Assembly (NCBI GenBank): GCA_905221605.1
Contig: CAJNDS010002124.1
Span: forward strand, 1,323,421-1,387,420
Length of the DNA stretch: 64,000 bases
Source of the DNA: Symbiodinium natans
Lineage: Eukaryota > Sar > Dinophyceae > Suessiales > Symbiodiniaceae
Direction of reading: 5' to 3'
This document shows positions 9,201 through 44,100 of the stretch, piece by piece (position 1 is the first letter of the stretch; each line of letters begins with the position of its first letter). The notes under the pieces are model-generated. The model saw only the letters and a program-made list of their open reading frames with translations. It was not told where the DNA came from and searched no databases. The position numbers were made by a program, and so were the translations under genes.

Positions 9201-12200
9201 AGGTCTTACGTCAACGAGTTCTTCTGCCCGGCAGCCTTGCAGCCAAAGTTCCAGCTCTCTTCCCTGCCCACGTACTTCATTCCGGAGGCCGGTGCCGCCA
9301 ATTGGGGTTTAGGGTTTAGGGTTTAGGGTTTCGGGTTTAGGGTTTAGGGTTTACCCTAAACCCCTAAGCCCTAAATGCCTTGATCTGCCCGAGTCTCTCT
9401 TGACAGGTTTCAGGTTTTGAGCCCTGGGGGCTTTTGAGGTTTAGGGTGTAGGGTTTAGGTCTTAGGGTTGAGGGTTTAGGGTGTAGGGTTTAGGGCCAAG
9501 GATTTAGGGTTTAGGGTTTAGGTTTTGAACCCTTTTTAAGTTTTCGGGCTGGTGCTTAACAAGGTTTGTCGAGGGGGTTTGTGGTTTTCGGGAAAGTGGT
9601 CGCGGGGGGGGGGGGGGGGGGGGGGGGTGTGCAGCTTAAATAGGGTCTATTTGGAAGCGGGGAATCGTATTTACAAGAGGAAAACAGGCCCCAAAACGTA
9701 TACTTATTCACAAGAGCCATGTTCCAAATAGACCCTATTTTAGGTCCTGTAGGGTTGCACAGACAGAATTTAATTCATTAAATTCCTTAATTTCCACTTT
9801 CCCCCTGGAATTTAATGAATTTAATCAATTAATTCAATTAATTCATTTATTTCCAAATGGGGGGTGGGGGCTGGGGCATCCTCCTCCCCCCAATATTAAA
9901 CCACGAGCCCGGGCCTCCCCCCAATACTAAATCACGAGCCCGGGCCTCCCCCCAATACTAAATTACGAGCCCGGGCCTTCCCGCAATACTAAATCACGAG
10001 CCCGGGCCTCCCCCCAATACTAAATCACGAGCCGGGCTAAATCACGAGCCCGGGCCTCCAAATTACGAGGCCGGGCCTCCCCCCAATACTAAATCACGAG
10101 CCCGGGCCTCCCCCCAATACTAAATCACGAGCCCGGGCCTCCCGCAATACTAAATCACGAGCCCGGGCCTCCCCCCAATACTAATTTACGAGCCCGGGCC
10201 TCCTCCCAATACTAAATCACGAGCCCTCCTCCCCCCAATACTAGGGCACAGTTTTTGCTCCAAAAAGTGACATCGCAAGCCCTGGTCCCTAAGATTTTGA
10301 GCTCATTTCTTGCCCCAAAGAGTAACATCGCAAGCCCTGGTCCCTAAGATTTTGGGCTCATTTCTTGCCCCAAAGAGTAACATCGCAAGCCCTGGTCCCT
10401 ATTATTTGGGGCCCAGTTTTTGCTCCAAAGAGTCAAATCGCAAGCCCTGGTCCCTAAGATTTTGGACTCAGTTTTTTGCTCCAAAGCAAGCCCTGGTCCT
10501 TAAGATTTTGGGCTCATTTCTTGCTCCGAAGAGTCAAATCGCAAGCCCTGGTCCCGAAGATTTCGGGTTCAATTTTTGCTCCACAGAGTCAAACCGCAAG
10601 CCCTGGTCCCTAAGATTTGGGGCACAGTTTTTGCTCCAAAGGGTCAAATCGCAAGCCCTGCTCCCTAAGATTTTGGGCTCATTTCTTGCCCAAAAGAGTG
10701 ACATCGCAAGCCCTGGTCCCTAAGATCTTGGGCCCAGTTGCTCCAAAGAGTCAAATCGCAAGCCCTGGTCCCTAAGATTTTGGGCCCAGTTTTTGCTCCA
10801 AAGGGTCAAATCGCAAGCCCTGGTCCCTAAGATTTTGGGTTCAATCTTTGCTCCAAAGAGTAACATCGCAAGCCCTGGTCCCTAAGATTTGGGGCCCAGT
10901 TTTTGCTCCGAAGAGTCAAATCGCAAGCCCTGGTCCCTAAGATTTTGGGTTCAATTTTTGCTCCAAAGAGTGACATCGCAAGCTCTGGTCCCTAAGATTG
11001 GGGGCCCAGTTTTTGCTCCAAAGAGTGACATCGCAAGTCCTGGTCCCTAAGATTTTGGGTTCAATTTTTGCTCCAAAGAGTGACATCGCAAGCCCTGGTC
11101 CCTAAGATTTGGGGCCCAGTTTTTGCTCCAAAGAGTAACATCGCAAGCCCTGGTCCCTAAGATTTTGGGCCCAGTTTTTGCTCCAAAGAGTCAAATCGCA
11201 AGCCCTGGTCCCTAAGATTTGGGGCCCAGTTTTTGCTCCAAAGAGTGACATCGCAAGTCCTGGTCCCTAAGATTTTGGGTTCAATTTTTGCTCCAAAGAG
11301 TGACATCGCAAGCCCTGGTCCTTAAGATTTTGGGTTCGTTTTTTGCTCCAAAAAGTGACATCGCAAGCCCTGGTCCCTAAGATTTTGGGCCCAGTTTTTG
11401 CTCCAAAGAGTCAAATCGCAAGCCCTGGTCCCTAAGATTTTGGGTTCATTTTTTGCTCCAAAGAGTGACATCGCAAGCCCTGGTCCCTAAGATCTTGGGC
11501 CCAGTTTTTGCTCCAAAGAGTCAAATCGCAAGCCCTGGTCCCTAAGATTTTGGGTTCAATTTTTGCTCCAAAGAGTCAAATCGCAGGCCCTGGTCCCTAA
11601 GATTTTGCATTCATTGTTGCTCCAAAGAGTGACATCGCAAGCCCTGGTCCCTAAGATCTTGGGCCCAGTTTTTGCTCCGAAGAGTCAAATCGCAAGCCCT
11701 GGTCCCTAAGATTTTGGGTTCAATTTTTGCTCCAAAGAGTCAAATCGCAAGCCCTGGTCCCTAAGATTTGGGGCCCAGTTTTTGCTCCAAAGAGTCAAAT
11801 CGCAAGCCCTGGTCCCTAAGATTTTGGGTTCATTTTTTGCTCCAAAGAGTGACATCGCAAGCCCTTGTCCCTAAGATTTTGGGCCCAGTTTTTGGTTCAA
11901 AGAGTCAAATCGCAAGCCCTGGTCCCTAAGATTTTGGGCTCAATTTTTGCTCCAAAGAGTCAAACCGCAAGCCCTGGTCCCTAAGATTTGGGGCCCAGTT
12001 TTTGCTCCAAAGAGTCAAATCGCAAACCCTGCTCCCTAAGATTTTGGGCCCAGTTTTTGCTCCAAAGAGTCAAATCGCAAGCCCTGGTCCCTAAGACTTT
12101 GGGTTCAATTTTGCTCCAAAGAGTGACATCGCAAGCCCTGGTCCCTAAGATTTGGGGGCCAGTTTTTGCGCCAAAGAGTAAAATCGCAAGCCCTGGTCCC

Positions 12201-15200
12201 TTAGATTTTTGGGTCGATTTTTGCTCCAAAGAGTCAAATCGCAAGCCCTGGTCCCTAAGTTGTCGGGGTCGATTTGTGCTCCACAGAGTCAAATCGCAAG
12301 CCCTGGTCCCTAAGATTTCGGGGTCGATTTGTGCTCCACGGAGTCAAATTGCAAGCCCTGGTCCCTAAGATTTTGGGCCCAGTATTTGCTCCAAAAGGTG
12401 AAATCGCAAGCCCCGGTCTTTAAGATTTTGGGCTCATTTCTTGCTCCAAAGAGTAACATCGCAAGCCCTGGTCCCTAAGATTTTGGAATCGATTTTTGCT
12501 CCAAAGAGTCAGATCGCAAGCCCTGGTCCTAAAATGTTGGGCTCAATTTTTGCTTTTCCCTTCTCTTCTGCTTCCTTTTAACTGATAAAACACAAGAAAG
12601 GAACTCATATGATAAAGCAGTGGAAAGGTAAGCAGAGGGTGACTCCTTGCGCGTGAGCCTTTCCATAATACTCCATCATATTCATCCTCTCGGCCTATCT
12701 CTTCTGTTCCTTTCCTTACTCTTCTCCTTCTCATAGTTCTTCCTTTTTGTTTTTCTCATTTCGAAAAGAAAGAGGGAAGGGAGAAACAAGGGAGAGAGAA
12801 TAGATAAAGAAGAGTGCCATCTTCTCTGCGCCTTGTTTTGTCTCTCCCTCTTCTCTATTCATCTGTCTTCTATTCTCTTCCTTGCTCTTCCCATTAAATA
12901 TGCAATCCTTGGTATCTCTCCTCTCTCCTTCTCTCTTCCTCCAACAGATGTGCTTTTGGATCGTTTTCTGCATCTTCAAGCGAGAAAAAAGGACACAGAC
13001 TGCGATTAAAAGGGACGCCCATGTTGGATTGGCAGCAAGCCCAGCTGATGCTCATGATTCTCTCTCTTTCCCTACACATGGGCGATGGAACGGGTGTCCT
13101 TTTCAATCGTTTTTCTGCATCTTCAAGAGAAACAGGGACACCCCACAAGAAGGAAAAGCAACATAAGAGATAGGGAGGGAAATTGACCCTTTCCTCTCTT
13201 CTTATCTGCTATTTTTCTTATTCGCTTCAAAAAGCAACATAAGGGAAAGGGGATTTCCTGAAGAGGAGAGAGGGAACCTATCTGTGAAAAGCAAGAATGG
13301 TTTTTTCTAGTTCGAAGGGGAATAGGGAGAGACAAGGGAGAGATGATATGTACAGCTTTGCGCCTTATTTTGTGATTCCGTCTCCTTGCTTCCTGTCTCT
13401 TCTATTCCTTGCAGCACGCTTCGGGAAACATAGCATCCTTGTTATCTTTCCTCTCTCACTTCCCTTTCCCTTCTCTTCTTCCGCTTCCTTTTAACTGATA
13501 AAACACAAGAAAGGAACTCATATGATAAAGCAGTGAAAAGGTAAGCAGAGGGTGACTCCTTGCGCGTGAGCCTTTCCATAATACTCCATCATATTCATCC
13601 TCTCGGCCTATCTCTTCTGTTCCTTTCCTTACTCTTCTCCTTCTCATAGTTCTTCCTTTTTGTTTTTCTCATTTCGAAAAGAAAGAGGGAAGGGAGAAAC
13701 AAGGGAGAGAGAATAGATAAAGAAGAGCGCCATCTTCTCTATTCATCTGTCTTCTATTCTCTTCCTTGCTCTTCCCATTAAATATGCAATCCTTGGTATC
13801 TCTCCTCTCTCCTTCTCTCTTCCTCCAACAGATGTGCTTTTGGATCGTTTTCTGCATCTTCAAGCGAGAAAAAAGGACACAGAATGCGATTAAAAGGGAC
13901 GCCCATGTTGGATTGGCAGCAAGCCCAGCTGATGCTCATGATTCTCTCTCTTTTTCCCTACATATGGGCGATGGAACGGGTGTCCTTTTCAATCGTTTTC
14001 TGCATCTTCAAGAGAAAAAGGGACACCCCACAAGAAGGAAAAGTAACATAAGAGATAGGGAGGGAAATTGAAGAACTCCTCATTGTACTTGGTCATTCCC
14101 TTTCCTCTCTTCTTATCTGCCCATTTTCTGTGCGCCTTGTTTTGTCTCCCCCTCTTCTCCCATCATCTCTCTTCTGGTCTTTTCTTTGCTCTTCCCATTA
14201 AAAATGCAACCCTTTTTATGTCTCCTCTCTCCTTCTCTCTCCCTCCTCTTCTCCTGTTCCCTTCTAAACGACAAAAACGCAAGAAAGGAAGAATAAGAGG
14301 GGAATGGAGGCCCTGTTCCTTTTCCTCTTTCAATGGATGGGGGAAGTGGGCGGAGTTGGCCCCTTGCCCGTACACCCTCCCCATGCTTCAGCAAACCCCT
14401 CCTCTCGCCCTATCGCCTCTGTTTTTTCCTTGTGCCCAAACGGAAAACGAAAACGGGTTCCTTTATATGTTCATTGTCCTTCCTTTTGTTTTTTTATTTC
14501 ACAGGGAAAAGAACCAGAGAAGAGGAAGATAAGAACGAGAGGTGAGATGAAAACGGCACCATCTTCTCTTTGCCTTATTTTTGCACCTCCCTCTCCTGTC
14601 TTAATTTCTCTTCCACTCTTTTTTTCCATTGCTCTTCCCATAATATTGCATTCCTTTTGATAACTCACAGGAAATTAAAATGGCCTCCTTGTTGTCTCTC
14701 CTCTCTCACTTCCCTTTCCCTTCTCTCCTTCTGTTTCCTTTTAATTTTAACTGATAAAACACAAGAAAGGAGCTTGTAAAATCAAGCAGTGGAAGGGTAA
14801 GCAGAAGGTGACTCCTTGTGCGTGGACCTTTGCCGTACTTCACCATACCCCTCTTTTCGGCCTATCTCTTCGGCTCTTTTCCTAACCCTTCTTCTTTTCA
14901 TCTTTCTTTTTGTTTTTCTCATTTCGAAAAGACAGAGGGAACGGAGAGATAAGGGAGAGAGGATAGATAAAGAAGAGTACCATCTTCTTTGCGCCTTGTT
15001 TTATCTCTCTTCTATTCTTTTCTTGGCTCTTCCCATGAAAATCGTGTTCCTCTTATCTTTCCCTCCTTCTCTCCCTTCTCTTCTCCTCACGAGAGCCTTC
15101 GACTTTAGGATTGAGGAGAAAAAGAGAAGAGAAAAGAGGAACTACCTGGTTCTTGTTCCTGAGGCCTCCATAGTACGACTGACGTGACAGCAGCGTACCC

Positions 15201-26800: not shown

Positions 26801-29800
26801 CGCTCAGCCCCAGAACTCCAAGGGCTGGTGGTCATCAGCAAGGAGCAGGAAGCTGTCATGAACTCGCGCCTTGGCTACGCAGGGTCTCTCTTGTTTTCTC
26901 AGGGCAGGTTCGTTATTTCAAGCATTGCTTGGGATGTTCGCCCTTGTACTGGCCGTCCTTGAGAGGGATTCTAGTAGGGGGTACTATAACCCTTTTTGAG
27001 GACTGTTAGTATAAGGGGAACCATCCCACAGCATTGTGGTCTAGAGTTGATGTCGGTTTGTAGGGCGGGCTGAGTTGTTGGTCCGCAGCCTGGTCAACCT
27101 AAACCCTAAGCCCTAAGCCCTAAACCCTAAGCCCTAAGCCCTAAGCCCTAGGCCCTAGGCCCTAGACCCTAGGCCCTAGGCCCTAGGCCCTAGGCCCGAG
27201 GCCCTAGGCGCAAGGCGCTAGGCGCTAGGCCCTAGGCCTAGGCCCTAGGGCCTAGGCCTAGGGCCTAGGGCCGGCCCTGCCCTTATCGGGCTTTAGGCGC
27301 TAGGCCCCAGGCCCCAGGCCCTAGAGCCCTGGTCTTCCCTGCTGCGCATGAGAGGTTTGCATCCGTCGGCTGGGAATTTAGGGCTGTGGAGAGTTGCCTA
27401 AACACTAAAGTCTAAAGCCATCAGCCCTAAACCCCAAAGCCCTAAAACCCTAGGGCTTGGGGTTGTCCCCTAAGCCTAACCCCTAAACCCCAGTTTTAGC
27501 CCGAAATCTGTACGAACCCTAAACCCTTACGAACCTTTTGGACGGTGTAGCTCTCTTTGCTAGCATTCCCGAACCCAAGCTGTCCTGGAGCTTGAAGATC
27601 CTAAAAACTCCGTAAGCCCTAGGCCCTAAACCACTAAAACAAATCCAAACCCTAAGCGCATCTGGTGCGGCCCGAGTGAAGCCCTGGCTCCCGAAAGCGT
27701 AAACCGCATGAATATCGACTCCCTGGTTTCATGTGTTGGTTGCGGGACTTTCGTGTGTTCAAGGGTTAGAGTTTAGGGTTTAGTGGAACTCCTGTACTCA
27801 TGGGTTAAGGTGTCTAGGATTTAACCCTGAACCCCTGAGCCCCTGAACCCCTGAGCCCATTAACCCGGGCTTCAAGTTTAGGGTTTAGGGTTGACCTGCG
27901 ACTCTAGTTACCTACACTTTAGTAGTAACTACTGGTACCCTTTATATAATTAGTAGGTGGAACCCTAGAAACTGCAGGTAAAGAGAGTGTCAGGTGGGTT
28001 TGGGGACGGGAATCCCGCAAACGCCAAGGCTCTATCAAGGCAGCGTCCCTCTGTCCTGGCTGTTTGCGTATCCCAGTGCCATGGCGGCGGACTTAACGGC
28101 GGACTTAAATCCCTAACCCAAAGGATCCATGTACCTATATAGTATATACTTGGGCCTTAAAGCTACTATATACCCCTTTAAGGCCCAAGTACATACTATA
28201 TAGGTACATGGATCCTTTGGGTAAGCCCCAAACCCTGAACCCTTAACCCCATCCTCGGGCTGAGGGAATCCGAACCTTCGCTCCTAAACCCCTGAGACTT
28301 TCAGGCCCAAGTCGGATACCTATAGACCCCAAAGGATCCATGTTACCTATATAGTATATACTCGGGGGCCTTAAAGGGGTTCCATAGTAGCTTTAAGGCC
28401 CAAGTATATACTATATAGGTAACATGGATCCGGAAGGAACCCTAACATCCGAATCCGCAGCCACCTGGAGCCCCATTTTGTTGAAATTTTTCTGAAGCCC
28501 TAAGCTCAGGTTTAGGGTTTAGGGTTTAGGGTTTACCTAGCGAACCCAAAACCCTAAAAAAAGTAGGGTTGAAATCAAGAACCCGTCTTTAGGGATGATG
28601 GACCAGCAAACCCCGGGTTCAGCTATCAAACCCCGTGTTTAGGCCAGTAAGCTATGGAGGGTAAGATGTTCAGTCCTATGAGGCCACACCTTCGAAGATT
28701 CTGAGGAACTCGCTGCTCAGGCATGGCTCCATTGGTGCAGTGGAGGCACAAACCATGAAGACATTGTAGCAAATAGAAAGTGAAGGATGCAGTTCGCCGA
28801 GCATGCATCGATCCAAACATCCCTATATACTGTAAGTAGAGTTCACAGGAGCATGTTCTGTTGCATCGTACAGCACGAAATGGCCAATCAGTTAGCTGAT
28901 GGCACCGGTCACTTTTTGCCGAGAGCTCAGACACTCGTAGGTTCGGCAGCTCGGAAGGAAGTGCCTCGCAAGGATGCCAGCAATGCTTGCTTGCATATTT
29001 GCAGGCATTTTAGTTCAGTCTCATCGGGGCTTGTAAAGTTTGGGCGCCATGGCGCCAAAGAATCGGAAGGGGAACACGGCTACGTGGAAGGGTGAAAGCC
29101 AGGAAGCGGGATGTGACATCAGGGGTATCAATGAGGCGTGGGATTGCGACGCAGAGCTTCGAGGGCGTCTGCGCAAAGGCGGACCTCTGATGCACGAGCA
29201 GTCAGGGCTGGTTTGCGACAACCATGTCTGCACACTGAATAAGTCGCTGTTGCTGCCATTGCTTTGCAAAATGGGTACCTGTGACAGAAAGCTGCCTTCG
29301 GTTGCAGACCTCCGAAGTGAAATGCACATCTTGTTCACTGAGAGCAAGCGTACGGGGCCGGATGTGCAACAGAGCATCACTGGTGACTCCGTGCATGTTC
29401 GCAAACTTCTTTCCCACGTCAAAGCTAAATGCCGACGCGAAGAAGTAAGCATCGAGCCATGACTTGGATCAGTTACATTTTTTTCGAAGCTCAGTTTGCT
29501 GGTTGCTTCCACTTTGTAATCCGTGTCGAGCACGCAAGTGTGTCAACCGTGCAAACTCAGGACCCGGATTTCCAAGAACTCTGTCTAGCTTTGGACCCGC
29601 TGCTTCAGGCCGGATCTTGATTGGATGAGGTCTTTTGTTTTGGGGAGCCCCTTGCAAATCACAGCCAACCCTACAAAAAACAAATCGACCTGCCCCTGTA
29701 TCGTATCTGTACCCATGTGTCATTCGTGCAGGAAGTGGTCAACGCAGTGAACGCCCGGGTCTTGCTGAAGTCTGGGAAAGAGGTGGGGGTTGAATGAGCC

Positions 29801-32800
29801 TGTGTAGAAATAGCCCGCAAAAGCATGAATCCTGTAAGCGCCCCGAGCACACAACCCGCCTGCGCGAGGCTTCCGACGAGGAGGACGACGCAGAGGATGA
29901 GTATGACGAGGAGTCGGAGAAAGAAGCGCCTCCCCCAACCAGCAACTCAGACACAAGCCTCCCTGCTGTTGCTGCTGCAGCTGAAGCCCCAGCCACGAGC
30001 CCTACCACTGCTGTTCCTGCAGCCCCAGCCACGAACCCTACCGCTGCTGCTACTGCAGCTGAAGCCCCAGCCACGACGAGCCCTACTGCTACTGCAGGAG
30101 GCCCAACCACGAGCCCCTCTGCTGCTGCTGCTACAGCTACCAGCCCCTCTGCTGTAGGAGCCCTTATCGCCACTAGCTCTGCTGATGCCACAGCAGCCCC
30201 AGCCAGGAGCCCCTCTACTGCTGAACTCTGTGCAGTTACCCCGGAAACTCTCGCTGTGCCCGCGACTCCTTCTGAGAAGTTCCAGGCACCCTCTGAAGCC
30301 CCAACAACGCCACCTCAGACCCCCTCTCTTGCGCGTGGAAGCTCTACATCTTCTTTGTCCGAGGAGGCTCTTACGGTGTTTACAAGTTGATACAGGGTGT
30401 TCTGCGTGAAGGGTATGTCTCAGCCCATTTTAGCCTAAAAGCAAAAGCCCCAAAACCCCAAACCAAACCAGCTCAGCCCTGTTGACAAGGCGCCTTCCTC
30501 TGCGGCTCCCAAGAAGCTGACCTTCACGCCATCACCCCATGAGTCTACCGGTGTCCGGGTTGAGTTTAGCAATTCATACTGCTTACGTAAAAGGTTTTTG
30601 ACTTTTGTGTTGACCTGGTTTGGTAGATATCACTCTGAAGGCTTCAAGTCAGGGAGGTAAAATGCGCAGCACCTAAGGTCGCAGGCGGCTTACTGACCAG
30701 GAGCGGGCCGAGATCAAAGCAAGGGTCGAGGCTTTGAGGAACCAGATCAAATCGACATTTGGCAGGATTTGGATGGGAGACCTGAGTTTCTTAGTTAAGT
30801 TCAGGATGTTGTTCAATTCTTGGGTTTGCAATTCCCAGGAAGAGTGCTCCGATGCCTGCGTCGGCCGTGCACGAGACCAGTGGCTCCGATGGCCAAGCTT
30901 CAGGACCCCCGTATGCTCAGCTAATTTGTTATACCTATGAAAGCGATAAGCCACACGAGCAAAGTATGGGAAACGGAGAGAGATGGAGCGAAAGAGAGAG
31001 GCAAGCCCCACACAGTCAGCAAAAATGAAACAATGGGAGACAAAGAGAGAGAGATATAAATAAAATCTACATATATTATATGTATATATGGAGATCGATA
31101 GAGCGAAACAGAAAAAGAAAGAGATGGAGGGACGGAGACAAAGATGCGGAAGACGAAAGAAGAAGAAAGGAAAGAGAGAGAGGGAGAGAGAGGGAGAGAG
31201 AGAGAGAGGGAAGGAGACAGAAAAAAAGAAGTAAGGAAAATAAGAGAAAGATCAAAGGGAGGGATGGAGGGAGGGAGGGAAAGTGAGAGGAAGGGAGGGA
31301 GGGAGAGAGAGAGAGAGAGAGCTGAAACGCAGGACCCTCCCCACCAGCATCCTTCAGCACAGCGGGGCTTTCGGATGATACACAGCCCTGGGACATCATG
31401 AGTGTTGAGGTGCCAAGTGAGTCGAGCGTCCTCCACATGCAGCCTGTCCCACCTGGGACAGAACCGGCAGCAGCCGCGCCCGAGCCAACAGCCGAGACAT
31501 CCGCCGATCCTGGCGAATTCACTGAAAGCAACGAAGAGGCCCAGACTTGCTGGAAGCTCCATATAAAGGATATCTTGCCTATTTAGTTCTTTCGGTTCCA
31601 CTATATTAGTCGGTTACTTTACTTGACTTCTTAGGTGGATGTGCCGGTGCTTTCTAGAAGGGACCAGTTTTGCTTGAAGAAGAACACGAAGGGCAAGAAG
31701 AAGCGGGGCCCCAAGGCCAACAGAGGCAAGGGTAAGGGTGCTACGGCAACACTCAAGAAGGCCAAGTCGATGTCACCATCCAAGCGCAAGCGCGTCATGA
31801 TGAAAGTGTGGCCCGTGGCCACTTTGAAGGTGAGGCCTTCGGCTACCGTGGATTCCTTGGACCATGGGCCAGGCGGCGAGTCAGAGGAGGAGCCTGCAAA
31901 GGGCAAGCGTGGCAAGACCGCTGCCGCAGCCAAGCCTTCAAAGGCCTTGCCTTCGCCCAAGGCGAAGGCGAAGGCAAAGGGGAAGGCGAAGGCAAAGAGC
32001 ATGCCGGCAAAGACAGCTGCCAAGCCCAAAGCCAAGTCGACTGCGAAAAAGGCTTCGCCAAAGAAGTCTGAGTCTCCTGAAGCCTCAAAGTCTGGTGACA
32101 AGCGCAAGGCCTACCCGAACCTCACACCGTCTGAGATTTTGCGGTGGTACTTTGAGGCAGGGAACGAGAAGGAGGTGGTGGCTGTCGTCGCAGACTTTGC
32201 CACCGGCTGGCAGGACGGCGAGTGCAATGCGAAGTTCAAGGCGGACTTGAAGGCATCGCTGCCTGAGCTTTGGCAGGTCGGTCTGACAATGTACTGGACA
32301 AGGGCAGGCGCAGGCACGCTGCACAAGGCTAGCGGCAAGGAGCTCGGGAACTTTGCCTCTGGGGGAGCACGGCGCGAGCTTAGTTGGGCAACCAAAATGT
32401 CTGCAGCGGCAAAGGTCGCTAGTATGTTTGGCTTCATGGTGGATTCCTTGGTCTACGAAGGCTACATGAGTGAGGACGACTTGCCAGGCTCTGATCTGAT
32501 TGAAGAAATGAAAAATATCTTTAAGAACATTTTGTGTGATGCGCTGTCTGAGATGGCCGTGTAGAAGAGGAAGCTTCGAGACATCTCTTTTCCGGGCTAG
32601 AAAGCCGCTCGGCTTTTGCGCGTTTAGATGATCGATGGGAATGCAAGTGCGTCTTGCACGTGGGAGATCGATCTGGTACATGCAAAGCTGTCGTGTGGCT
32701 CCCTCGGATTCACGATGTCAGTTTCTCTTAGGGGACTTAGTTCGCTGCCCGACCGTTCTAAAGCGATGCTTTAAATCGTACATGATCTTTGTTCCCCAGC

Positions 32801-35800
32801 CTACCTAAGTATTGTATGTGTAGCGACGCATGTAGAGACCCTCCCAGCAACAGTACTCATCACAAGTTCTGCAAAGGAGCGGGTTGTGCAGCAGAGCTTC
32901 AGAGTCCTTCAAAAGGTCAATCTTGCGCGGGCCCTGAGTACATCTTTTGTACTTAATTACCTGGTAGAAACTGTATCATCCTTACAAGACGCATTACCTT
33001 TGGGGGCTAGCCTTATCATCGCCGGGCCCTGTGCCCATACTCATTTTGTGCTCAGCGAGCCTCGTCGCTGTCTGAGATGTTCATCTGTGTGGATTGCTGC
33101 GGCGAAAAAGCCTTGGACGGGAGCGAAAGTATATTTGATGATTTGCTTCTGCACTTACAGACTGTGATTGTAGAAGCAGCAGCACCATTCGAGCCCAACA
33201 GGCCCACCCCGCACCCTGTACACTGTCTCATCTATGTGCGTGCCCAGGTCCAGACATCGATGCCTCTCCTCCCAGCCGGCACGCTGTGGAAGCTCCGCCT
33301 CGCACAGTCGAAGCAGCAGGGTACTGCCGGCTCGTTCTTTCGGCCTCGAAGCCCCCTAAACCCTTTCTAAACCCTATACAAACCTTTTTTTTCTTTACAT
33401 ATTCCTTTTTACACTATTCTAAACCCTGTACACAAACCCTATAACCGCTCGATCTTTTCAAGGTTGCGCTGAACGGGGAGGAATTGAGGGAGAGCAAAAC
33501 TTTTCATCAATCAAGCAGGGCGAACAAACAGTTCAGCGATACGCAGTCGCACACTACGTACAATGCATCTTGGGGCTGAAAGTCTCACGTTCGTCAAACC
33601 TGGTAAAACCGCGGCCTCTGCGTAGCCGCGCGATACGATGATGGATGTCGATCTCCTCTGTTGGCGGCTGAAGCAGCTCAAAGCTCCCAAGGACGACGGT
33701 GGTTCTAACGAAGCCCCCTTGCAGTCCCAGTGTCCCACGGAACATTTCTATCTGTAAATATTAGTGCGCCCGGTACCCAACCATCGCAGGACTTCATCCT
33801 GATAGTTTTGGTCTTGATCTGGTCTGTAGACACAGCAAAGCTGCAGCAGGCTGGGTGAGTGTATCCAGACTCGAGAGTCATGTTCGTGCAGGGTCTCTCG
33901 TTGTGAGGACTATGAGTTCATAGAGTTCTTTGCTGGACAGGGCAGGCTTTACCGTTGTATGAGGGCTGCTGGTGGGTACAAATCAATTCGCTTTGACATC
34001 ATGGATGCCGAGAAGGGTAATCGTTGTTCGAATTACATGGACATTACGTCTACCAGTGGCTTCGCGCACCTTGTGTTGCATTCCAGGCAGTAGTATATAG
34101 GGCTGTCGTTGCGTGAGGAACCCAATGTGTTTCTTTGAAGTCCAGATTTTGTAGACCGCAGAATTGAGTAGCAACTAAGTGTTGCCCTGCTCGCCATCTT
34201 AAAGCTGAACTGTGGGCGTGGCTACGTGCATTTCGGAATGAAATGCTCTTCCCTATCATCTATGAACAGAGCAACGAGTGGCCGCACGCCATGCTGCCCA
34301 ACTGGCAACGCAGCGTACCCGAGCGTTGCAAGTGCAAACGTTATCATCGAACGGACCGGCTTTCTACTGTCGCACACCGGGTTGATCTGAAACTTCTTGA
34401 AATGTTTTTCTTACCCACCCACACCCCTGAAGGACAATACTTTGCGCTCTGTTGGTCACAGCGATGGACTGCACGTGGACCCTCGAGCAGCCGGGGAACT
34501 CCACCCTGGAATTTTATCCTGCTTGGAGACATATGCTAATCAGCCTCTGGAGCGCTGGTGGACCTTACTCTGCCCCAAACTCAATCACAAGTCCCATCAG
34601 TATATCTTGGGTTCCCTTCTTATCAACCATGAAGCTGTCGACTCAGCTAAGGTGACGAAGGTCAGCTTTTGGATGGCCCACTTCATGTCCAGAACTCCTA
34701 AGCGTCACTACGTCTTTTCGAACTCCTCACGAGTCAGGGTTCTCAACCAAGGGAAACTTGCGCTGTCTAAGTACAAGTGCAGAGTTAAAACCACCCATCG
34801 TTACGTTGACGCCAACGGCAAACCATGTTGGACGGGCAATCGCAACCTGCGAAAAACGGAGCATCTCATCCCCAATAAGCAGAGATGTCTTTGTGTATTA
34901 AGCCCTAAGCAAGCTAGTAAAGAGTCCCCAAAAAACTTCCCCAAGTACAAATACATGCTGGAATCATGATCCTTTGCAGCCTTAAGTTCTGTCTTCGATC
35001 CTTGTTCCCTCAATCCCAAGTAGAAAGCTAGCTTCCTCGACCATCAAGGAAACCACAGACAACACCAAACATGCTATATAAATGCTGCCCAGCTTCCTGC
35101 TCATCCCAGGCAGTACCCAGTCGCCTTTGCCAAGTACATGGTGCACATCTGCGAAGTCCTCAAGAAGCGCCGGCGCGGCTGTCCCAAGGCAGGTTGTGAG
35201 GTCCCCTCGGGCCTTGAAACGGTTGCAAGTCTTTCCAGCCATGACAGTGAAGAGTTTGCTGCTGCTGCTTTACCAGAAGTGTACAACTATGTTAGAGGGG
35301 GCAGCAGCCTCCGTATCCCAGATGTTTGGCGGGGTCTTTTGCCGGATGGCTTCCTGTAGTGGCTCTCTGAATGGCATATAGGGTTGGGTTCCTAGACATA
35401 CCAGGACGTGACAATCGCACCATCTAAGTATTATATATACAGAGAGGCTGTTAATGTTTTGTTATTTTAACGTATTATTTTCTATTGCCATAATTTTGGT
35501 CCGGTTGCCCCGTCCTGGTAGTTTGGTTTGGGGGAAACTATGGAAGGCTTCTGTAGGGAACGGCGCGGGTTTGTGCGGGTTTGTGCGGGTTTTTATGGTT
35601 TTGCTTCAAGGTTTTAAGGTTTTTTTGTGGAAATTTCGGGTTGGGAAGCCGTCTGGGGCCTAGAAGCACGTGAAACCCCGGGTTTACCCATGACAAACCC
35701 GTGATTTCCCCACCAAAACCCCGGGTTTAGACACCGAAACCTCGGGTTTAGGCAAAACCCCGGGTTTAACCCCAGAACCCCTGAACCCGTGACAAACCCA

Positions 35801-38046
35801 TGGCAGACCCATGATTTACCCGTGACGCCGTCATGGGTAAACCCCGGGTTTAGGGTCGATTTCCTGAGACCAAAAATGCCCCGTCTTTGCTACCCCGCAC
35901 AAGGTTCGAATGGGCCTGGCTGCGGGAATTTGTTGAAATTCGGATGTCTGTGGGAAGTAGCCATAGCTCTGGATGCAGGGTCTGAGATGTCCTATTGGGC
36001 GTTGGAACAAAGTCGAACACTTGGACTTGCCCAATGTGTTCAAGCTGCCTCTCTGCATGGATCCCCAGGAAGCAACGCTCCCAGAAGCACAGGGGCTCTT
36101 CTCACCCGCCTTGTCTTGGCTTTCTGCAGAACAGTTCTCCGTACATGTGTAGTACTGGGGTTGCTATGGCCCTGCCTAGCAAAATTTCAAAGCTATGGAG
36201 CTGTGCAACCTTACACTTGGGTCTCGACAGTGTCCTGGAAAGATCAGCCACTATGGATGATGCGCAGGCTCTTCGCGAAATTGAGGAGAATTGGGGCGGG
36301 GGTTAGGTGTTTAGATGCTCTCGGCCTGAATTGAGCACGTTCTGCCAATAGAACCCCACGCGAAACCCCACAGCCCCAAAACCCCAACACCCTTCAAACC
36401 CCAAAAGCGGGATGTTCCCCCTTATGCTAACAGTCCTTACGTGGGTTACTAGTAATAATAATAATAGGGGTACTTTTATGCCTATAAAATATAAATAAAT
36501 ACATATATATATATATAAAGTCCCTAGTATAAAAGGGGAACATTCCAACCCCAAAGCCTTAAACCCTATAGAGCCTTAAAACCCTAAAACCTTAGAACTC
36601 CAAAACCCCAATTCAGACCAGCAAAACCCCAAAACCTTAAGACCCTAAAGCCCCTATAAACCTTAGTCGTTGCTCCGCTTTTGAGGAGCTGGAGAAACTT
36701 TTGCAGGATGACGAGGCCTGGGCCCCACTTTTCCCAACCTAATGTAGAAGCCTGGGGTGTAGACTCTGTGGCGTTGCGCTATTACTTTCAAGGCCGAAGC
36801 CATGATTCCTTCTGCTGAACTACTTTGTCTACGTGAAATGGAGACTGTTCCTGCTCTACCCTCAGGAACAATCTCCTGGTGCAAAATATCAGCTGCTCTC
36901 TCTCTGGCTGTGCTGTCCTTTGGGTTTCTGATTGAGGCTTCGTTCCAGGAACTACGTGAGGCTGGAATCGGTACAAAGGCTGCGAGCGAACCACCGGCCC
37001 CAATGCCGGAAGCTGTGTGTGAAACCGATGCCTACACACTGCTTGATGTTCCCTGGCCACAAAACACACATGTTGTCGCGAAACCGCGAAACCGCGAAAC
37101 TGCAACCCTGCAATATTCAGTCCCCGCTGCAGGCTGATTCCACCGATGAAGAGGAGCTGGACAAAGCTTCCTAAGTGCATTTACAGATTTCCAGCAAGAT
37201 GCAAGATTTTGGGAAGCTTGGTTGTCGTTGCTTATCTTAGGCTTCCGCTGCAGACATGTTGGCACTTCTGACTGGGGTTTTCGGAGTGGAAGAGCCAGAT
37301 GTTACTGCAGCCACCCCGCCACCACGAACACGCGAAGTCAAAGAAGAAACCGATGATAATGCCACTGAGAAGAAGCCGGCGACGAGACAAGCCCCTCAAC
37401 ATGAATCCCTTTGTGCTATGTGATGTATCGGTCGGTCAATTTTCGCGCACTTCGTGTGCTGTGTCTCATCATGCCTTCTGCGAGGATAAGTTGCTCCGTG
37501 CTGCGAAAGCACGCATTGATCGTATGGTCAAGCCACACGCAAAGCGGAGAAGCCTCGATGTGCCAGAGTGGATGAAGGAGGAATGGAAGAAGGGCGACAA
37601 GGGCGCGATTGCGAAAACATTGCGGGATGTAAACTTCGACCGTGTTTCTGGGCCGTGATAGCACCAACGCAACAGAGCAACCAGCTCAACACAAGCCCAA
37701 CCAACAACTTAGGAGAAGTTCCTTGTCAAGATGGAGGTCTCGGTGAAACTGAGCAACAAGCGTGAGATCATCATCGACGAGGGCTGGTACACCCACGAAG
37801 AAATGATGTCTGACTTGGGGTGGACCAAGTTACTTAGCGCACATATATAGCTTTGTCAGCGCAATACGCTACCTTAAGAGTGCGAAGCCCCACCCTGCCC
37901 AGCCCGTCTCCACCCCTGATAATTTCAGGACGCGAGCCGACAAAGCTGTTGCCCAATGCCGACTGCTGGGGCCCGACTACTGCAGGCAACCCCACAGCAC
38001 TTTGCTCTCTCTCCTCTCTCTGTCGCTCTCTCTCTCTCTCTCTCTT

Positions 38047-38113
<67 letters not shown>

Positions 38114-41100
38114 GTCCCTGTCTCTGTCTCTCTCTTTGTCTCGGTCTCTGTCTCTGTCTCTGTCTCTTTCTCTTTCTCTTTCTCTTTCTCTTTCTCTTTC
38201 TCTTTCTCTTTCTCTTTCTCTTTCTCTTTCTCTTTCTCTTTCTCTGTCTCTCTCTCTCTCTCTCTCGCACTCGCTGTCGCTCTCGCTCTGTGGCCCTGTT
38301 GCTCCTGTCCCTTATAATCCTTATTGTTTTATCTCATTCTCTTTATTGCCTGTTTATCTTCTGTCTCTTTCTTCCTTATCTTTCTCGCGAGGAAGAACGA
38401 GTACGATGGCTTGGAAGAGTTTTGGGTCAAGATTCGAGAGCATGGAAAGCGGAAGCAAGCCCTAACCTATGAGGAGAACCACAAGAAAGCTTGCCAGGCC
38501 CTGCGTCCCGAAACGCCAAGCGTTCATACCAAGCATCCTCAAGCATCCTCCCATCCTCAACGACGCCAGGACCGTGAGGAGCTCCCAGATGTGGCCGGCC
38601 TCGACAAGTTCGACAAGCTAGAGGTGCTGCAGAAGCGAGGGTGCCAGGCACAGGACGCAAACAAACAGGAGGACCCGAAAATGCACATGCATCGCCAGGC
38701 CAGCGCACACGCAGTCAGTACTGCCCTGTGACTCTGTTTGGCATAGCTCACTAAGTTTCTTATGACTTTCAAACGCTTGTAGACCCTCGCCGCCCTCGAG
38801 AAGTACACCGATGCTGTTATGGCGCAGATAGGAAAGCTCCGGAATTTGGCAAAGGATATTCACAAGAATTATGTCAATTCGGAGGAGACAAAGAAGTTTC
38901 CTGGCCCCATGCAACGGTTGAAACCTGCACTTCTGCAAAACCTCAGTAACGAACACCGTGAAGCCCAGGGCTGCTGCGGCCATCGATACCCAGATCTCGA
39001 AAGTCGAGGCGATCTACGATTCCTGTATGGAACTCAAGGCGAATGCCGAAATGATGAAAATGGACGAAAAGCCACTTGCCTGTGTTTGTACCTGAGGTAG
39101 ATTCAGGTAACACCAGTTCTTTTCTGTAGAAAGGGGTGTGTTTGCGCGCGCACAAGGTTTCACAATGATGCGGGGAAGAAAATGAAGGACGGAACCCTCG
39201 TGCCCCCAAGCCTGTACTATTCAGAAAGCTTTGAATCGCTTTCAAGGAAAGTTTGTTTAGATAGATACACGAACTCTCCCTTGAAACCCCTTCCTGTTCA
39301 AAGGTGCAGTCGCGCCGCCGCGTTGGAGAACAAGCTGAAGACGCCAGCTGCAGTGGTGTCGAGTCCTTGGGTTTGGGGTATATCTAGGGTTTATATAGGG
39401 TTATAGGGTTCGGGATTATAAGGGTTTATAAGGGTTAGGGTTTATATATAGGGTTTAGGAGACGCACGGGTTACTGATTCTGGGCTGTCGGGATGGGTTT
39501 GTCGACTTGGTTCTATGTAGTGAGTTGGCCCAGGACTGCAAAGAAATGCTGGGAAAAGGTTACGCCGTCATCGCAGCCCTCCCTGAAGCCTAAGCCAAAG
39601 GCCTCCCCGAAGCCTGCTGATGCCGCCCCAGCAAAGCCCAAGAAGAAGTGCAAGAAGTAGGGTTCTGTAAATATGGGGCTGGGGACACGCGGGAAAACCC
39701 GTGCTTTTATTCGTGGTACATGGCCACGAATGCGCAGTACGACGGGCTGTGGGGATCTGCTGAAACAACTCGCCTGCCTTGCAAGTGGCCTCCTGATGCT
39801 GCAGCACGGGTCACACAAAGCTGAGTGCAAACCTGCTCTACATTCTTGAAGCCAGGTTCTTCCGCTGGCCACACCATACGCGGGCTCAGCAGCGACATTG
39901 GCGATGGCGCCGTGTACTCAGAAAACGTTGCTGCGAGTACTTCAGTCCGGCTTGCTCTTCTGACTGTTTGCACGTGTAGCTTTTTGATCGGGTGTGTGTG
40001 ATGTCTTTGTTTGCTGGCAATGGAAATGGGCACCGCAAGCACAGACGATGAGTTGTGGGATCTTCTTACCTGTCATCGCCACGATAGCCAGCTGAGGTGT
40101 TTAGGGTTTGCAAATGTCTTTCTTTTAAGAACTATTTTTGTGCTTCATGCTGCTAAGACCCTTTGATCCTGTCCCCGCAAACCTAGGAGAGTATTGCCCC
40201 GTATCCTTGGAAGAAAAGATCACCTGAAACAAAGCGCAACCAGCCCAAGCCCGTCATCAAGGTGGATAAAAACCTTGGCACAGATTAAGTCCCCGGCAGC
40301 AGACCCCAGCATCAAGAGCATTCGCCGTAGTGATGTCTTGAGAAAAAGAAAACTTGGCACGTCGTTTGGGCGGCTCGGCGAGCCTATATACTTGAGATTC
40401 ACAGGGCATGCCACTGCAGGAAAACCGACAACCCAACCGACCTGTCTTGTCTCGGCACTCTTGTCGTTTTGCATCACATAAAGAAAAACTCTTCCGACAT
40501 TTTGGGATCATATGAGAGCATTGCCGGGCCTGGGGATATATAGAGACGATGTTCGTCCATTTGTCTAGATCTCGCTGGTAACGGTAGACATCATTGCACC
40601 ACCTCTGTGCGCGTGATCCTGATTTTAAAAATGAGCGGCTCCCATTTTCGGAAAAGTGGTGGTGACACGAGCTGCGACGACCGTTTCATGACGTACATTG
40701 TGTACAGATCCTTCAAGCATCCGACCAGGGAGGCGCAGAAATTCCTTGAGCTCCATTCGAAAAACTTTGACAAGTGAGAACTCGGGGGTACACGAGCAAA
40801 CAAAGTTTGTGCGCAACCACAGTTTGCAAGCCAAAGTGTGTGTTCTCATTCAGTAAAAAGCATCACACGTATGTATGTTTCTTTTCCCTCTTTCCGAGGC
40901 CTCCTGCCGTGCAGCCATCCGGACTGCTCGCAACATTGTGAAGGACGTGGGCGTGGAGCAGGCACGAAACGTAGGTGGCCTGCTTGGTTTGGCTCGTTGC
41001 TCTCAGAGTCATTCCGAGAGGGATACCCGGGGGCTATTGTCGCAGAAGCTGGGGCTGGCGTTACCCATTCCTTTGCGTGCTGTTCCTGATTCGGTGGATC

Positions 41101-44100
41101 CGAGCGTGCACGAAAAAAATAGACTTCGGATGCTGACCATGAAAGACTGGGCCAGCTTCTTTCTTCGGACAAACAATTGGCACGTATTGTGCGGGCTCCG
41201 GTCCCCGAATCCTGAACGGGAGCAAGCGATTTGGAAGTCGTGGTGGCAAAAGTACGAGCAAATTGATCCGGGTCATCCTATATTTGCAATGGCCCAGCGA
41301 GGCGAGGTCGCTTTAAGCAAAACGGCGGCCGTCGTCGTACACGGCGACGAGGGGAGAGGGAGGCGCCGGCAGGCGTTTTTCGTCCTGTCGTTCCACTCGG
41401 TTCTTGGCCGCGGCACAGTTGCTTCACTGGAGAAATCTAAGAAGCCCAATGCAAGACGAGTTAGGAAGCCTTATCTTAAAATGGGCTTGAACTTCAAAGG
41501 ACATTCCTACACAACGCGTTTTGTTCTGGGTGTTCTTCCTCGCCACCTTTACGCTGACAAAGATCGAAACTTCACTTCGCTTTTGCGTGCTGTATATCAC
41601 GATGCAGCCTCGATGGCGACAACCGGTGTGGTCGATCGTAAGGGATGCCGTCACTGGCTATGCGCTGTTCGCACCATCGGCGACTGGCCATTTCTACATA
41701 AAGCTGGCAATTTGGACAGGACGTATGCAAACACAGTGAAATCTGTGAACCAAGCTTCTTCAGGGATTTGTCATCTCTGTTGTGCTGGAGAGCCAAACAT
41801 TCCGTTTGAGCAGATCGCGACAAGAAGACCGGACTGGTTGGATAGGCCTTGCACCACTTCACCATTCAAGGATGGGATTCTTCCTGAGGCTGCTTGTCTT
41901 CCTCATGCCCCAGGCCGTTTACCCAACCACTATGCGTATGACATCTTTCACACCTTCCATTTGGGAGTCGCCAAGAACTTTCTTGGCGCGGTTCTCGCTC
42001 GCTTATCAGACTTTGAGAGCGGAAATGTGGAGCAGCGCTTTGAGGCGTTGACTGTAAAGTATCGTACTTGGTGCCGTGCGACAGGAAACGCGCCAATAGT
42101 TTCGAAATTGACAAAGGATCTTATACAGTGGGAGACAACGAGCGACTACCCCAACGGTTCTTGGTATAAGGGGGGCCTCAGCACGAACCTTATGCTCTTT
42201 TTTGAGTCGTTGGATGGCACATTGTCGGATCCATTACTTCTTTTGGCAATGGACGGCGCCAAGGCGATAAACCTTTTCTTTCGGACTCTCTATGCTGAAG
42301 GCTTTTGGCTGTCACCTGCAGTGGCGAGTTTTACGGGGCAGCTAGCAAGCAAGTTTTTGAGAAGGTACGAGGAATGTGCAAGATTGGCGCACAGCGAGCA
42401 AGCCACGCTGTTCGTTCTGCAACCTAAGTTGCGCCCGCTTCACCATTTCGCAGTTGATTTGCTGCGGGCTGTGCAGGCTGGGCACGAAGCTATCAACCCT
42501 CTGGGGTTTTCGACACAAATGTCGGAAGACCTGGTTGGCAGGCCTTCTCGCCTGGGCCGGCGAGTGGCGACACCTTTAGTTTGCCAACGTGTCTTGGAAA
42601 GGTACTTGCAGTCGTCATATGGCGAGTGGGTCAAGGCTGGTCTCCTGATCGAATCGAAGGGCTCTGCGTGAAAAGGTCACCGAGCACTTTGAGCATCAGA
42701 TTTGTTTCGGCAGGTTCGAGAAGGTATGAGCATCAGATTTGTTTCGGCAGGTTCGAGAAGGTCGGAACATCATGTCATCAGCTGTTTATAGAGACCCCAT
42801 AGCATGACTCTTGGGATGAATAAAGCCCCTCAAAATCTCGAAAACCCTAAACCCCGGGTTTAGATTCCAGACCCCGTGTTTAGACACCACGCTCGTTTTT
42901 TTTCAGGTTTTAGGTTCTTCAGGTAGGGTTTAGGGTTTAGGGTTTAGGGTTTAGGGTTTAGGGTTTAGGGTTTAGGGTTTAGGGTTTAGGGTTTAGGGTT
43001 TAGGGTTTAGGGTTTAGGGTTTAGGGTTTAGGGGCCCTCAAGCTACACCCTAAAGGTCCCGAGAGCCCTAAGCCGTAAACCCCTAACCCCCTTAACAGCC
43101 ACGCCCCCGAAACTCCAAACCTTAATGAACCCTAAGACCCTAAACCCTAAACCTTGCACCCTGAACCTATTCTTAACACCCTACACCCGGACAGACTCTC
43201 ATCCTGTGAAGCCCGAGTGGAAGCCCGGGCTCCCCCAACCTGTAAACCCCATGAATGGGATTGTAGGCTTGCGTTAGGGATTTTTTATGGGGTTGAGGAT
43301 GGTTTAGGGTTTATAGGTTCGGGGAATCTTGAGGATGTGGAGGACATCCATTGAGCTTTCCTGTGTCTGGCTTCTTCTGGTTCGGGCTGAAGGCCTGGGT
43401 TTTCATATGTGGGTTGCGGGACTCTCGTGTGTTCAAGGGTTTAGACTTTAAGGGTTATGGTTTAAAGGCGTCTAGGATTTAAACCTGAACCCCTGAAACT
43501 CTGAACCCCTGACTACGGTTAGCAGTTACTACCCCTTAATTAGTAGGCATAACCCATAACAACTGTAGGTGAAGAGAGGCATATGAGCCCTCCAAACCCC
43601 AGGCCCCGGACACTAGTTCCCAAAAAAACACAAACGCCCTTCGCGCGAAGCCCTGCAACCCTAGTCTAGTAGTAGAGTACGTAACCTTTAACCTTTTTGG
43701 GGTAGTAAAAACCCCTTATAATCCCAAAGGTTAACCTTTAATTCCCCCAGGTTACTGGACAACTAAGCCAGACTAAAACGCCCCTAAAAAGCCCTAACTG
43801 GGCTTTGGAGTACTATACTTTAATACTTTTTTTGGTTTTGGGTTCCCATTATAGCTACTTATACCTAAAAAGTATATACTTTTTTTTCTGGGTCTACTCC
43901 AGAGGTAGGCTAAAATCCCCCGGGGATGCCCTGGACAAAACCCAAAACCCTCAAAAGCCTCAACCACTGAAATCTGAACACTAACCCCCAACCCGAAAAC
44001 CCTAAACCCTAAACCGTAACCCGAAACAACTATAAATTTTTCCCGGGTATGAACCCTAGAAAGCCGAAACACTAAGAAGCTAAACCCCACACCCTGAAGA

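Follow-up and report, generated by a model that had tools for sequence, protein, structure and literature searches.

A probable large DNA transposon with a RAG1-like predicted transposase in the dinoflagellate Symbiodinium natans

What is the origin of a gene-bearing island, nearly devoid of telomere-type repeats, that lies within 64 kb of Symbiodinium natans DNA (the window, part of contig C1812) whose flanks are rich in such repeats? An initial annotation proposed that the island was an undescribed composite transposon. Analysis of the window and a search of the 759 Mb genome support this idea through the ends of the element, a TA duplication and the linkage of its modules, although the class of the transposase differs from that first suggested and the genes are probably three in number. 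The island is thus best explained, with a probability of about 90%, as a cut-and-paste DNA transposon, autonomous or so until recently, of a Symbiodinium-type dinoflagellate, an alga related to coral symbionts.

Ends of the element

Cut-and-paste transposons of this kind have terminal inverted repeats (TIRs) at both ends and a target-site duplication, and both features are found in the window and in a second copy on contig C1801 (Table 1). The two copies were compared by blastn with the telomere-type repeats masked, as these swamped the unmasked comparison, and positions 28572-42914 of the window are colinear with C1801 over 14 kb. No alignment was obtained between the flanks of the two copies over the 1 kb on the left and 1.6 kb on the right that were compared. 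In both copies the alignment enters a (TTTAGGG)n tract at each end. At the left junction the flank closes with ...GGGTTTA and the element opens with CCTAG(C/A)GAACCC..., whilst at the right junction the element closes with ...GGTTCT(T/C)(C/T)AGG and is followed by TAGGGTTTAGGG. Removal in silico of the element together with one TA brings the TTTAGGG repeat back into phase, and a 2 bp TA duplication is the simplest reading within a 7 bp repeat.

The element so defined is 14.4 kb long, and the limits initially given to the island (28608-42882) fall within 75 bp of its ends at 28536 and 42923. Exact matches to CCTNNNGAACCYAAAACCY number two in the window, one per element end, and 14 when up to two mismatches are allowed, against 0.4 expected. 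Common ends and a target-site duplication, which had been set as a check on the transposon proposal, are therefore present in the window and C1801; the evidence is weaker for a third element on C1855, where the right end reads ...CGTTGCCGTTGG followed by TAGGGTTTAGGG. TA-bounded right ends also occur in a related family.

Transposase and cargo genes

The transposase is encoded by an intact open frame with a predicted D-D-E fold. The best fold matches of its model are RAG1 and Transib, which supports a RAG1/Transib-like fold, and D158, D270 and E551 are candidate catalytic residues, chosen by conservation only. Sequence searches gave little: 51 members of the transposase family matched 17 Pfam families at E<=1 with no transposase model among them, seven transposase relatives had no meaningful Pfam match, profiles A1 and A4 found nothing significant among PDB sequences, and none of eight island open reading frames (ORFs) exceeded the Pfam cut-off.

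The protein had initially been described as Tnp2/KDZ-like, but KDZ membership is unsupported. That the island is a KDZ element (Zisupton, Kyakuja or Dileera), or a plain Tnp2/CACTA element with incidental neighbours, is improbable given both the Pfam result and the predicted folds, and since the ends read CCTAG...CAGG and not CACTA. The target duplication is TA here, in contrast to the 8 bp of Zisupton (PMC12730594, cited from excerpts). The same excerpts place CACTA/EnSpm and Plavaka, with duplications of 2-3 bp, in the CMCT group like Transib, so that a remote Tnp2 relation is possible.

Four co-oriented genes had been recorded in the island. The four co-oriented protein stretches are indeed present, but the charged coil and the transposase most likely form one spliced gene; coil-like stretches are, on the analyst's reading, fused to the transposase in the predicted proteins P0007, P0008 and P0120. 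An additional conserved exon set (29049-30775), absent from the initial annotation, lies upstream of the four stretches and is termed gene 1. For the basic H1-like protein one paralogue was found in the genome, on C1801.

C5-cytosine methyltransferases have PCQ as their catalytic motif. The methyltransferase-like protein displays the motifs EFFAG, KCSS..N.TSGR and LEQP, and its family has an invariant K109-C110 and a near-invariant S112 (KCSSF..N.GTS.R) where PCQ is expected, the equivalence being the analyst's reading. Three relatives had no meaningful match in Pfam, and the protein is presumed to modify DNA.

GIY-YIG nucleases are characterised by a GIY/YIG motif together with catalytic R and E residues, and a stretch KFGWTHDP..RWSN..MLEASLI resembles this motif, although two such stretches had no match in Pfam at E<=10. 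The GIY-YIG-like domain lies between the methyltransferase-like gene and the transposase at 9 of 13 places and seems to survive as a single exon in the window element. It precedes the transposase in family members P0083, C1855, C813, C2454 and C1321, and three places in the genome match the N-terminal part of P0083, a protein recorded for S. natans, with 99-100% identity.

Table 1. Features of the element, in window coordinates (aa, amino acids)
Feature	Position	Strand	Remark
Left TA target-site duplication	28534..28535	.	inside (TTTAGGG)n; mirrored at 42924-42925
Left TIR	28536..28565	+	starts CCTAGCGAACCCAAAACCCTAAAAAAAG
Gene 1, first exon, 137 codons	29049..29459	+	70% aa identity to C1801, 33% to C1855
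Open frame, probably of gene 1, acidic at first and then rich in Ala/Pro/Thr	29794..30390	+	splicing inferred
Short conserved exon, probably gene 1	30677..30775	+	73% aa identity to C1801
Basic H1-like tract and conserved C-terminal domain	31635..32564	+	dN/dS 0.24 in C-terminal part
Methyltransferase-like gene, about six exons	33638..34876	+	exon joins inferred
Methyltransferase-like exon starts	near 33638, 33784, 33905, 34172, 34431, 34650	+	
Charged coil module	36157..39911	+	probably 5' part of transposase gene
Coil exons (approximate)	36157-36297, 37241-37417, 37488-37646, 37713-37832, 38378-38545, 38773-38925	+	linker 39852-39911
Exon	40631..40778	+	resembles end of GIY-YIG-like domain preceding other family transposases
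Transposase, RAG1/Transib-like predicted fold	40884..42671	+	598 aa open frame
37 bp tandem duplication, 2 copies	42690..42762	+	single in C1801 copy
Right TIR	42894..42923	-	CCTGAAGAACCTAAAACCTGAAAAAAAACG on minus strand
Right TA target-site duplication	42924..42925	.	same TA at C1801 copy

Ratios of nonsynonymous to synonymous substitution rates (dN/dS) between the window and C1801 copies were obtained for eight segments. The values are 0.20 for the transposase, 0.37 for the H1-like protein, 0.20 for the first exon of gene 1, 0.09, 0.35 and 0.20 for methyltransferase exons 3, 4 and 5, and 0.15 and 0.16 for two coil exons, with synonymous sites almost saturated except in the transposase. Purifying selection acts on all eight segments. 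That the cargo has been retained as protein suggests a function in the service of the element. In 500 bp steps, most of the element is 57-79% identical between the two copies, but the value rises to 90-97% between about 41.0 kb and the right end, a jump suggesting that element lineages have swapped their transposase ends through module exchange or gene conversion.

Linkage and copies in the genome

The transposase has at least 88 matches in the genome at a minimum of 60 places, both counts being lower bounds as 73 of 193 candidates were scored. With P0122, a full-length relative, as the query, the methyltransferase-like gene gave 84 matches at 49 places. Of the 49, 31 have a transposase on the same strand and lie upstream of it by 4.6-23 kb, where 0.06 would be expected from uniform placement, and within 30 kb of a transposase none lies downstream or on the opposite strand. 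Places whose match statistics were identical or almost so were taken as copies of one element each (C813/C2454/C1321; C1977/C1557/C2357/C2205; C446/C2038/C900; C1847/C2445), and the linked places form 23 groups when each set is counted once. The full module order is the same in all three elements read through, namely those of the window, C1801 and C1855. At C1855, the third best transposase place (42% identical), the transposase and the 20 kb upstream of it contain gene 1 exon 1, the H1-like protein, the methyltransferase-like exons, the coil, the GIY-YIG-like domain and the transposase in that order. The repeated co-occurrence and order by which the initial proposal was to be judged are therefore borne out, with 31 of the 60 transposase places (at least 60 in total) having the methyltransferase-like gene upstream.

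The modules could in principle be a nest of independent transposase, methyltransferase and H1-like elements lying together by chance, as 29 of these 60 transposase places and 18 of the 49 methyltransferase-like places stand alone. This is rendered very unlikely by the constant order and strand, seen at the 31 places as well as in the window, C1801 and C1855 elements, and by the single pair of exact TIR matches in the window, located at the outer ends.

A more distant family (33% aa identity) has four near-identical copies, on C1977, C1557, C2205 and C2357 (L023-L026), which end ...GGGGGATTAACAGG at a TA that leads into telomere-type sequence and then unrelated DNA, two copies being in each orientation. 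As the junctions lead into unrelated DNA, the copies are considered independent insertions, which are probably recent and the product of recent activity. On C2205 the distance to the methyltransferase-like match is 23 kb instead of 8 kb.

An immobile segmental duplication or host gene cluster would account for copies that are old, much of the element being so divergent, and for genes under purifying selection. It scarcely survives, however, the TIRs and TA at both ends in the window and C1801, in phase with the TTTAGGG tract, or the four near-identical copies of the related family at different sites. The large size and methyltransferase-like gene might bring to mind an integrated virus or an element derived from one. 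This is just as hard to sustain, since a non-exhaustive scan of eight island ORFs gave no match to a viral structural or replication family of Pfam, and what the copies conserve in common is gene 1 and the H1-like, methyltransferase-like, coil, GIY-YIG-like and transposase modules.

The linkage of modules within the transposon seems to predate the genus, given fused predicted proteins that the analyst reads as a methyltransferase-like domain joined to a coil-like stretch in Durusdinium trenchii (P0132) and as coil-like stretches before the transposase in a single protein in S. microadriaticum (P0007) and Effrenium (P0120).

Repeat context, related systems and meaning

The island had been called sharply compositional and free of telomere repeats. 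Telomere-type motifs number 0-4 per kb between 29 and 42 kb against mostly 10-83 in the flanks, but degenerate TTTAGGG-like repeats are present at 35.5-36.7 kb and 39.4 kb. GC content (0.485-0.546) is within the range of the remaining window, and the island is hence distinct only in repeat content. Other motif-poor stretches lie at 10-15 kb (0 motifs) and 19-20 kb (2 motifs). Positions 1-28500 and 43000-64000 contain dense (TTTAGGG)n/(CCCTAAA)n tracts, some of which face each other in inverted orientation at a distance of 100-150 bp, in a region no less than 1.3 Mb into the contig. A telomere-motif-free stretch at 9883-14100 contains 31 bp and 55 bp satellite arrays (55 bp unit x42), followed by a stretch that recurs about 0.9 kb later (12.8-14.1 kb). 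The proposed position inside one dynein intron is unconfirmed: a six-frame scan for dynein motifs found none, eight flanking ORFs had no Pfam match and two compared with PDB sequences gave nothing useful.

Right ends were readable at 8 of 27 loci, the remaining 19 being dropped, and 7 of the 8 are in TTTAGGG-like context (L010, L011, L012 and L023-L026, but not L030), or 6 of 7 without L012, whose end was recognised by the telomere context itself. The corresponding fraction for TA dinucleotides of the window outside the island is 0.31 (P 0.0016), with a local background at other sites of 0.00 to 0.47. The TIR pattern has 423 matches in the genome against 18 for a reversed control. Amongst 30 distinct matches (L040-L069, the first listed and so a non-random sample), a TA stands before 15 and a telomeric 7-mer before 4. 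Five of these loci (L046, L053, L054, L057 and L068) have an inverted partner that completes an element of 86-104 bp, and the one at L054 is flanked by TA at each end. These look like miniature inverted-repeat transposable elements (MITEs) of the island's family and are a possible source of introners.

The left end of C1855 was set at ...GGGTTTA followed by CCAGTGGCGCCCAAAACCCTGAAAAA, 16.4 kb from the right end, by its likeness to the window left end and its telomere context; it was placed by eye, five alternative positions gave better scores when compared with the right end, and confidence in a transposon is slightly lowered as a result. The 4 of 30 TIR matches preceded by a telomeric 7-mer indicate that MITE-like copies show no strong telomere preference, contrary to telomere targeting.

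As a cut-and-paste transposon, the element would be excised by a transposase that pairs its CCT...AGG ends and inserts it at TA, perhaps favouring TTTAGGG-like tracts. The coil may multimerise the transposase, the methyltransferase-like protein may modify element or target DNA, providing protection from, or mimicry of, host methylation, and the basic H1-like protein could pack or hold the long DNA within a nucleosome-poor nucleus.

RAG1 is an enzyme of vertebrate immunity, and Transib and RAG have GC-rich 5 bp target duplications and CAC-type ends. The island transposase has the predicted fold in common with them, but it is only about 10% identical, has no Pfam match and is associated with TA and CCT...AGG ends. 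CACTA/EnSpm and Plavaka (CMC) have short target duplications and the wider group in common with the element but unlike termini, and no Pfam transposase was matched by the 51 family members. As far as excerpts of the following sources go, fungal TET/JBP-carrying DNA transposons, some with TA duplications, also have a DNA-modifying enzyme as cargo, so the concept is not categorically new, although their cargo is a dioxygenase and their transposase of another family, in place of the methyltransferase-like, H1-like and coil modules (PMC12730594). Dinoflagellate mobile elements with methyltransferase-type genes are known as LINE and DIRS retrotransposons with recognisable DNA methyltransferases, unlike the TIR transposon and divergent enzyme described here, and DNA transposons encoding such enzymes are mentioned for marine viruses (PMC5890265). 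KolobokP, a composite-like DNA transposon, likewise combines transposase and nuclease, but belongs to another superfamily, with a His-Me finger nuclease and long terminal direct repeats (PMC9587614). No description of such an element was found in the literature searched, mostly without subscription papers, and it is apparently undescribed.

A bolder and decidedly tentative possibility is that RAG1-fold DNA transposons of Symbiodiniaceae constitute a new superfamily, separate from Transib, CACTA and Chapaev, whose elements themselves encode a DNA methyltransferase, a chromatin protein and a GIY-YIG-type nuclease. Such elements would insert at TA within telomere-like tracts and mobilise a swarm of MITEs of about 100 bp with the same ends, which could be a source of dinoflagellate introners.

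Activity is testable because the family is multi-copy, with near-identical copies at different sites. If the transposon interpretation is correct, dinoflagellates would have a RAG1-like recombinase within a large element that carries cargo. A further DNA transposon with a methyltransferase-like gene would be known, from organisms whose chromatin is notably unusual, and the many short TIR elements of these genomes would have a candidate autonomous source.
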